Assembly: GCA_022567655.1 (NCBI GenBank)
Contig: JADFGO010000015.1
Location: 1-32,306 of the forward strand
Reading direction: 5' to 3'
Length of the DNA stretch: 32,306 nt
Source: Candidatus Neomarinimicrobiota bacterium
GTDB taxonomy: Bacteria; Fidelibacterota; SORT01
Shown: piece by piece, positions 269-15,588 of the stretch
How positions within the stretch are numbered: the stretch's first letter is position 1
Layout: every line of letters starts with the position of its first letter
Position numbers and translations under genes: made by a program
Notes under the pieces: generated by a model
The model's database searches: none
What the model was told of the DNA's origin: nothing
Seen by the model: the letters and a program-made list of their open reading frames with translations, nothing else

Positions 269-844
269 ATGACTAATTATGCAAAGACCACATTTCGACA
301 TCTCGAAAAAAAACTTGTTTGTACCTTATTCGGCCATCAAGTTGATAACCATAGGTTTGCCCAGGCGAGTGATAATGTAAAACAGTGCCCCTGTGGTGTT
401 GAGTTTCTTCATCAGGATAGTTCAGAGACACGGGTTCGGCATACGATCTCGTGCTTCTTGATCCATCATAGCTATATAAAGATGAGCACTCGCAATGGCC
501 ATAATGAATATGTCTGTATACAATGTGGTCATCCATTATTGTTTGAAATCGGAAGCGATCCATATTCGAAGAATGGAGGGCACTTTGACAAGAAGGCTCG
601 CTACCTCTGTAATCTATTTGGTCATAAAGTACACACTGTGACCAAGAGGAACAGCTACACTGAATATGCCTGCTTCTGTGGGCATTCTTTTCTCAAGCAA
701 GAGAAATCCCTTAGCAAAGTCACACACCCACTGATATGCCTGTTCGCGGGACACTTCATTCACTTTGAAGCCCGTAGGAATGGCTATGCTGAATTCGTTT
801 GCCGGAACTGTGGTCATACATTCTGTTTCGTGGATAAGAATTAA
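269..844 (+). CDS. Four-unit Cys/His (zinc-ribbon-like) repeat protein, DUF1660-like units
   Basis: A 191-residue soluble protein with no signal peptide. It is made almost entirely of four copies of a unit of about 45 residues: Cys-x4-His, then a spacer often containing an RN-x-Y-x-E-Y/F motif, then a Cys pair followed by Gly-His. The ligand sets are C18/H23/C40/C42, C62/H67/C83/C86, C114/H119/C135/C137 and C157/H162/C178/C181. Units 1 and 3 have CxC while units 2 and 4 have CxxC, so the gene may have grown by duplication of a two-unit block. The unit resembles the short DUF1660-type proteins of phages, which I recall as single-unit; that match is from memory. Each unit probably binds one zinc ion. 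The stop overlaps the next start (TAATG), so the two genes are probably co-translated. Function unknown; nucleic-acid or protein binding is possible. Confidence 0.7.
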   Translation: MTNYAKTTFRHLEKKLVCTLFGHQVDNHRFAQASDNVKQCPCGVEFLHQDSSETRVRHTISCFLIHHSYIKMSTRNGHNEYVCIQCGHPLLFEIGSDPYSKNGGHFDKKARYLCNLFGHKVHTVTKRNSYTEYACFCGHSFLKQEKSLSKVTHPLICLFAGHFIHFEARRNGYAEFVCRNCGHTFCFVDKN

Positions 845-14382: not shown

Positions 14383-14510
14383 CTATTTCAACAACACCAT
14401 CTTCCTCGTCTGGACGAAATCGCCTGCTTGGAGGCGGTACATGTAAACACCGCTTGCGACTTCCATTCCGAACTTGTCTGTGCCGTTCAATGTTTTGGAA
14501 TAGTATCCCC
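14383..14510 (-). pseudogene. T9SS (Por) C-terminal sorting tail remnant
   Basis: On the minus strand this stretch encodes a textbook type IX secretion sorting tail of about 41 codons: GYYSKTLNGTDKFG, then MEVASGVYMYRLQAGDF, then VQTRKMVLLK and stop TAG at 14385-14383. The NGTD.......SGVY.YRL...G.....KMVLLK pattern is the Por_Secre_tail type A domain, which directs outer-membrane translocation and anchoring in FCB bacteria. Upstream of about 14510 the frame loses the usual domain and there is no start, signal peptide or cargo, so this is the 3' end of a lost or moved gene. The last 46 bases form an inverted repeat with 1515-1560. The short plus-strand frame over it is only its antisense. Confidence 0.75.
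14387..14432 (-). repeat. 46-bp inverted repeat, right copy (T9SS tail coding DNA)
   Basis: Partner of 1515-1560; 45 of 46 bases are identical in reverse complement. See the finding on the bracketed 12.8-kb block. Confidence 0.9.
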
Positions 14511-14562: not shown

Positions 14563-15588
14563 TCAATTAGGTTCAAACCAATTAGGTTCAAACAAAAAAT
14601 CGATCCAGAATTGAAAATTTCCTTCTAAAAATGAATGATTTTCAATACCAATTATATATGGCGTTGGTCCAAAGTCAATTATTACTAAATAATTTCCTAA
14701 GGTATTTTCTTCTATTAAAGGGAAATTAGTGAAATATTCATTTATAAAATCAATGTCCAGGTAGGTGTCAGGAAGAATATTGCCATCCGAAAAATGAATA
14801 ATTGTATTATCGTGATGCCAAATATACAGTTCCATTTGATATTCTATTGGCACATTCCCAACATTAGTAATATGAAAATATTCAAATGTGTCTGGGTTCA
14901 AAAAACTAACAGTACCCGTCTGCGAAATATCATCCATCTCGTAGCCTCGCAGGAAAGGTGACTCAAATAGTGATTTATCAGCGAGAGTTGGTTTAATTAT
15001 GACTCCCATTTTCGTACCGCCAACATCATAATCATCTAGCACTTCTATAGTATCACCATCGGTTATATAGTGGTATGTGATGATGAGTGTGTCCATAAAA
15101 GCACCAACGCTCATCTCAAGTAAGGTGCCTACTCCCTCAATTGGTATAACGTGTTCCTTGATGATGTTTACAATCGGTAAAGCTGATAGTTCAGCCCCTT
15201 GAGTACTGGCCGGTATAAGCCCAATGGTTTCAGGATAAATATATAAGTCCTGAGCGTTGAAATGTATGTCAAAAACATCCTGGTTCCCAACATTCATGAG
15301 CACATATTGTAAGGTACGTGTGGCTTTTAACTCACCATAGTAAATATCTACGGCTGCAGCTTTAGCAAGAACCGTAAGCATTTCAGATTTCGGCAGCCAT
15401 TGTTGGCCGTTTTCATCTGTTATGACCTTTGATAAGTCGTTAGTGTTCAGAGGCACTAACCGAAGTTGCCCCACAGCTTCATCTGTTTTCTCTTCTGGAT
15501 CAACTGAACTGTTATCGCAACCAACTATCACTATTACAGCCAATAGGGCGATTAACCAGAATTGAAATAACCAGACATATTTTGACAT
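14563..15588 (-). CDS. Putative lipoprotein of unknown function
   Basis: A 341-residue protein with a lipoprotein signal: a positively charged start, a hydrophobic stretch and a lipobox IVGC (Cys near residue 24), followed by an acidic linker (SSVDPEEKTDEAVG). ATG 15588 has an excellent Shine-Dalgarno (GGAGG, 5 bases away). The mature part is acidic, rich in Ile, Asp, Tyr and Asn, and probably all-beta, with two related-looking stretches: TLQYVLMNVGNQDVFDIHF, and EYFHITNVGNVPIEYQMELY. Both have a 'NVGN' turn as in Ig-like or CARDB-type domains. The last codons are a 15-base tandem duplication (14566-14595, one mismatch) giving FEPN twice. I recognise no family. Low GC and isolation between two remnants suggest an accessory or transferred gene. 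Confidence 0.75.
   Translation of the reverse strand: MSKYVWLFQFWLIALLAVIVIVGCDNSSVDPEEKTDEAVGQLRLVPLNTNDLSKVITDENGQQWLPKSEMLTVLAKAAAVDIYYGELKATRTLQYVLMNVGNQDVFDIHFNAQDLYIYPETIGLIPASTQGAELSALPIVNIIKEHVIPIEGVGTLLEMSVGAFMDTLIITYHYITDGDTIEVLDDYDVGGTKMGVIIKPTLADKSLFESPFLRGYEMDDISQTGTVSFLNPDTFEYFHITNVGNVPIEYQMELYIWHHDNTIIHFSDGNILPDTYLDIDFINEYFTNFPLIEENTLGNYLVIIDFGPTPYIIGIENHSFLEGNFQFWIDFLFEPNWFEPN

Follow-up and report, generated by a model that had tools for sequence, protein, structure and literature searches.

Introduction

Small proteins of phages and prophages, such as those of the Lactococcus phages TP901-1 and bIL309, make up the DUF1660 family (PF07874; phrog_2670), which is of unknown function; among the papers searched, none mentions DUF1660 or PF07874. 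A second family of interest here is that of the VTT/DedA membrane proteins (PF09335). A role in moving lipids is ascribed to DedA proteins, and one of the COG1238 type has been reported in indium resistance (PMC10127716); a transporter function has been proposed for PF09335 proteins (PMC7818093).

Here, we describe a pair of overlapping genes that recalls these two families. It lies at the beginning of a 32,306-nucleotide stretch of DNA from a Candidatus Neomarinimicrobiota bacterium (GenBank assembly GCA_022567655.1, contig JADFGO010000015.1), referred to below as the window. Its first base is also the first of contig 15 in a 2.14 Mb bin (96.6% complete, 3.85% contaminated). The features of the locus are as follows.

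269-844, + strand: tandem Cys/His ORF, 191 residues, ATG to TAA, pI 9.0, no predicted transmembrane segment
320-397, + strand: unit 1 core, type A, residues 18-43, C-x4-H ... CPCG
452-529, + strand: unit 2 core, type B, residues 62-87, C-x4-H ... CIQCG
608-682, + strand: unit 3 core, type A, residues 114-138, C-x4-H ... CFCG
737-814, + strand: unit 4 core, type B, residues 157-182, C-x4-H ... CRNCG
842-846, + strand: TAATG stop/start overlap (stop 842-844, start 844-846), read directly from the sequence
844-1380, + strand: membrane-protein ORF, 178 residues, GRAVY 0.76, with a weak collinear VTT/DedA-like match
1514-1564, + strand: C-terminal type IX secretion tail, remnant of 17 codons (LQASDFVQTRKMVLLK stop), out of frame with the preceding ORF

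A four-unit Cys/His repeat

The protein encoded at 269-844 carries four copies of a consensus unit, C-x4-H-x15/16-C-x1/2-C-G (CTLFGH...CPCG, CFLIHH...CIQCG, CNLFGH...CFCG and CLFAGH...CRNCG in units 1 to 4, respectively). It contains 13 cysteines (positions 18, 40, 42, 62, 83, 86, 114, 135, 137, 157, 178, 181 and 186) and 17 histidines in its 191 residues. With the search pattern C-x4-H-x(8-30)-C-x(1-2)-C-G, 20,000 residue shuffles gave no unit (19,803), one unit (196) or two units (1), compared with the four observed, which confirms the fourfold repeat proposed in an earlier note on this DNA. The alternation described there is likewise present: the second cysteine pair is CxC in units 1 and 3 (CPC and CFC) and CxxC in units 2 and 4 (CIQC and CRNC).

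The spacing from histidine to the second cysteine pair is 16, 15, 15 and 15 residues in units 1 to 4, whereas successive units are separated by 19, 27 and 19 residues; the unit boundaries first proposed are therefore the natural ones. An alternative pairing of the CxxC of one unit with the C-x4-H of the next is rejected, the spacing being constant within units and not between them. Units 2-4 also have in common a non-ligand motif, RN[GS][YH]xE[YF]xC. Four of the six unit pairs align with Z scores of 8.9-11.2; unit 1 is the most divergent and aligns with units 2 and 4 no better than shuffled sequences do (Z of 0.7 and 1.6).

Two ligand pairs per module, as in zinc ribbons, are found in all four units (C-x4-H plus C-x1/2-C). 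Each block of one type A and one type B unit would thus hold two Cys3His zinc-ribbon-like modules, giving four putative zinc sites in total. The constant spacing of the ligands and their common sequence context point to four small ribbons with zinc in a probably structural role. With so many paired cysteines, in an organism that has type IX tails, the protein could instead be a secreted repeat protein held together by disulphides. We consider this highly improbable: no hydrophobic signal-like segment is seen, the histidine of C-x4-H is retained in four units out of four, and both CxC and CxxC-G are motifs characteristic of zinc knuckles.

The AF2 model of block 2 (units 3 and 4), for which block 1 was the sole other row of the alignment, has a mean pLDDT of 53 and a pTM of 0.43; an alignment including phage rows was not used because these rows split units 3 and 4. 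Unit 4 is modelled with a short helix (50-55) and three strands (60-66, 69-74 and 80-84) at a pLDDT of about 66-70. Foldseek found no match to this model at E <= 0.001 in the PDB or BFVD; several small phage proteins in BFVD have probabilities of 0.8-0.99, but with E values of 0.07 and worse. In the VIA fold comparison all Z scores were below 4 (none reached 5), and no zinc-ribbon family was prominent.

Origin of the repeat

The two halves of the protein align end to end, linker included, with 38% identity (local score 140, Z of 19.3, the top score among 500 shuffles being 58), and the linker from unit A to unit B is of equal length in both halves (19 residues). Identity between the halves at codon positions 1, 2 and 3 is 41/84, 52/84 and 29/84 (0.49, 0.62 and 0.35), and different codons are used at 19 of the 32 residues that are identical between them; the similarity has thus been maintained at the protein level. 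Maximum likelihood on the unit quartet prefers the 13|24 grouping (RELL 0.74), with 12|34 and 14|23 not rejected. Together, the equal linkers, the identity of the halves and the preferred grouping support the duplication of a two-unit block suggested earlier, and from these comparisons a duplicated AB block is the likely, although not proven, origin of the ORF. It should be noted that selection on the Cys/His ligands was judged from the internal repeat alone, no relatives of the ORF having been found. The further suggestion that CxC and CxxC mark two types of site finds no support here: CxC also occurs (as CECG) in L026, a single-unit phage protein, so the spacing may simply vary.

Resemblance to DUF1660 phage proteins

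No family in Pfam or NCBIfam reaches its curated cut-off with this protein. The Pfam DUF1660 profile scores 21.2 bits (E of 4.4e-4) compared with a gathering cut-off of 21.4; taken singly, unit 1 scores 20.3 bits and unit 3 scores 16.9, and units 2 and 4 are not listed. The phrog_2670 profile matches with an E value of 5.4e-6, and profile-profile comparison of the units with phage DUF1660-like proteins gives a probability of 94% (E of 1e-7). It is CxLFGH, in units 1 and 3, that carries this signal. When a four-unit profile was run against 28,229 viral frames, 103 of the 192 hits bore CxLFGHKW (best E of 1.4e-4, against 0.079 in reversed frames), an enrichment that is in part built in because units 1 and 3 have LFGH in common with the labelling pattern. 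When the profile was limited to units 2 and 4, nine DUF1660-labelled frames appeared among 52 hits, one of them in the top 20, and a profile of the second halves of the units returned one among 40. The CxLFGHKW core, which is our own search pattern and not an independent definition of DUF1660, is not found at the N-terminus: units 1 and 3 have CTLFGHQV and CNLFGHKV, and units 2 and 4 have CFLIHHSY and CLFAGHFI. The resemblance to DUF1660 pointed out in the earlier note is one of motif, stemming from CxLFGH in units 1 and 3; the protein as a whole stays just below the Pfam cut-off, and neither units 2 and 4 nor the second halves single out DUF1660.

As a separate observation, the top match of the profile of units 2 and 4 is an open frame of a phage locus (L101, from about 9580 onward) with a long CxxCG...FCSxxC zinc-knuckle array, followed by a C-terminus that is presumably nuclease-like.

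At least 120 viral loci carry CxLFGHKW. Among the matches listed, the motif occurs in 104 open frames, with lengths of 37-102 residues in those shown in full; by the strict pattern 101 of the 104 have one unit, three have none and none has two, so that the single-unit form given for DUF1660 proteins in the earlier note is borne out among these matches. The present protein, with its 191 residues and four units, does not have the form of a short single-unit phage or prophage protein. By the sequence tests made it is not a member of DUF1660, although it may act as a tandem array of DUF1660-type units would.

The overlapping membrane-protein gene

The TAATG overlap with the next gene, also noted earlier, is confirmed and suggests translational coupling of the two ORFs. 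The sole Pfam match of ORF 844-1380 is VTT (PF09335), over nearly the full domain but with 10.3 bits (E of 1) against a cut-off of 33.9; the reversed sequence and three shuffled sequences had no Pfam match whatever. A profile built from VTT proteins of relatives aligns collinearly over 122 columns, with an hhalign probability of 0.7% and one of six shuffles nearly as high. With a three-sequence VTT profile, one in 2000 shuffles scored above the real sequence. AF2 gave a poor model of this ORF alone (pLDDT of 53). We treat a VTT/DedA identity, of the COG1238/YqaA-like type, as a lead.

This partner raises the question of whether the first protein handles metal. Its cysteine and histidine sets could hold exchangeable metal as a buffer or sensor, either passing it to a coupled metal- or lipid-moving membrane protein or regulating that protein. 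We keep this explanation because of the DedA indium-resistance report and the lipid-moving and PF09335 transporter proposals (PMC10127716 and PMC7818093). The abundance of cysteine and histidine and the TAATG overlap with a partner that has a weak collinear VTT match also speak for it. However, the regular ribbon-like spacing and the shared RN[GS][YH]xE[YF]xC motif look like folded structural sites, and the VTT match of the partner is far under the cut-off; we judge metal buffering or sensing to be improbable.

Genomic setting

The GC3 values of the two ORFs (0.44 and 0.39) are low within the range of 17 other window ORFs (0.33-0.67), but low GC is not exclusive to the pair, ORF 14563-15588 having a GC3 of 0.33. 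The rest of the contig looks like ordinary chromosome. Pfam recognised no phage gene among the 23 window ORFs scanned, there is no tRNA within the window, and promoter and terminator scans of positions 1-1600 remained at shuffle level.

Downstream of the pair, the tail remnant at 1514-1564 ties its 3' side to this genome. Type IX tail codons recur in about 20 places of the genome (for example loci L130-L135 and L255-L273), and a fuller copy at about 14383-14490 on the minus strand matches TIGR04183 with 20.9 bits (cut-off 23). The repeat at 1509-1565 and its copy near the second AT-rich ORF resembled attC sites, as in an integron cassette, an idea that was dropped because the copies read as type IX secretion tail codons.

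The position of the pair also raises the possibility of a contig-end artefact, in which roughly the first 1500 bases would be foreign DNA or wrongly assembled. The start at the first base of the contig, the contamination of the bin, the lower GC and the lack of relatives in the phylum would all agree with such an artefact, and the assembly could have made a false join exactly at a tail repeat. Yet the 3' side runs into a tail remnant, a type of sequence present about 20 times in this genome, neither ORF is interrupted, and the repeat shows conservation at the protein level; an artefact seems to us quite improbable.

Some further features of the tails were observed. Several copies are short remnants preceded by unrelated sequence, as if shuffled or left behind. 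A type IX tail lies some 70 bases past the stop of ORF 14563-15588 (minus strand, 341 residues, GC of 37%), which has no Pfam or NCBIfam match. A palindrome, GGGACGCAGATCTGCGTCCC, occurs at 21 sites in this genome at two mismatches or fewer and at none in six relatives, and lies inside some of the tail copies (among L268, L271, L267 and L273). In L268 it appears by eye to be in frame (LEVMGRRSASPTFVQARKMVLLK stop), similar to the palindromic elements carried by Rickettsia genes.

Distribution

Among 245 genomes of the phylum, the unit profile matched the genome of origin alone, with four matches, all in ORF 269-844. The whole protein was found in one of 61 genomes and ORF 844-1380 in one of the 245, in each case the genome of origin. 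At the limits applied, no tandem relative turned up among genome contigs or viral contigs, nor among phages and plasmids, where the searches gave chance-level rows (E of 0.2-9). The collection scans rely on short exact peptide matches and thus reach close relatives only. A tandem scan of viral contigs matched at least 120 stretches, with both halves of the pattern in one frame at 11 of the 119 loci examined and, by the scan patterns, two units in one frame at none of them; further tandem patterns returned nothing from viral contigs, all of these patterns, including that of the first scan, being narrow.

These results also weigh on a phage origin, in which single DUF1660-type units would have been acquired and then amplified fourfold in the bacterial chromosome. 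The DUF1660, phrog_2670 and profile-profile E values favour it, as do the CxC variant of L026 and the presence of AT-rich singletons at a contig end. Such an origin nevertheless seems unlikely, with the signal confined to the CxLFGH of units 1 and 3, so few DUF1660 frames among the hits of units 2 and 4, no Pfam-recognised phage gene among the scanned ORFs and no tandem form in the viral contigs by these narrow scans.

Discussion

The explanation that we prefer, tentatively and with slightly less than even confidence, is that ORF 269-844 encodes a soluble, basic scaffold of tandem zinc ribbons, built of two AB blocks, which acts with its membrane partner and was perhaps acquired laterally. The four modules would jointly form a multivalent surface that binds nucleic acid or protein; the charge of the protein (+9.9 at pH 7) fits the binding of nucleic acid or of acidic partners. 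Because its gene overlaps that of a membrane protein, the scaffold may act at the membrane: it would be produced in step with a small VTT/DedA-like protein, probably being tethered to it or regulating it. The pair as a whole may have entered this lineage by lateral transfer. A bolder proposal, to which we give little credence, would make the protein the first of an undescribed family of alternating CxC/CxxC zinc-ribbon arrays, which would act in the cytosol to regulate, or as a lid on, a divergent transporter of the DedA type that moves lipid or metal and belongs to the same operon.

Compared with known systems, the protein is ordinary in kind, unusual and new in its arrangement, and a singleton in the searches made. 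Its weak Pfam matches are mostly to zinc-ribbon families, and its best PDB sequence match is a small zinc finger protein (E of 0.04). With Zn_Ribbon_TF, Zn_ribbon_8 and IS256_N_4Cys (NF048018), all below cut-off, it has in common a CxxCG knuckle amid aromatic residues; the last of these scores 25.1 bits over three stretches (cut-off 27), but its best stretch (residues 95-115) lies off the units, in the linker before unit 3, and includes one cysteine. The membrane partner shares with VTT/DedA the PIP and GR..RY segments and a single domain of about 170 residues, and differs from it by its low score. With DUF1660/phrog_2670, the tandem protein shares CxLFGH, a C-x4-H followed by CxxC(G) and, in one phage protein, the CxC variant. 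The phage frames have one unit, whereas here there are four, three of them with RN[GS][YH]xE in the second half, on a bacterial contig and with a sub-threshold score. If the units are nonetheless DUF1660-like, the protein would be a tandem form of this small phage family, and the overlap with a membrane-protein gene would offer a hint to the function of DUF1660.
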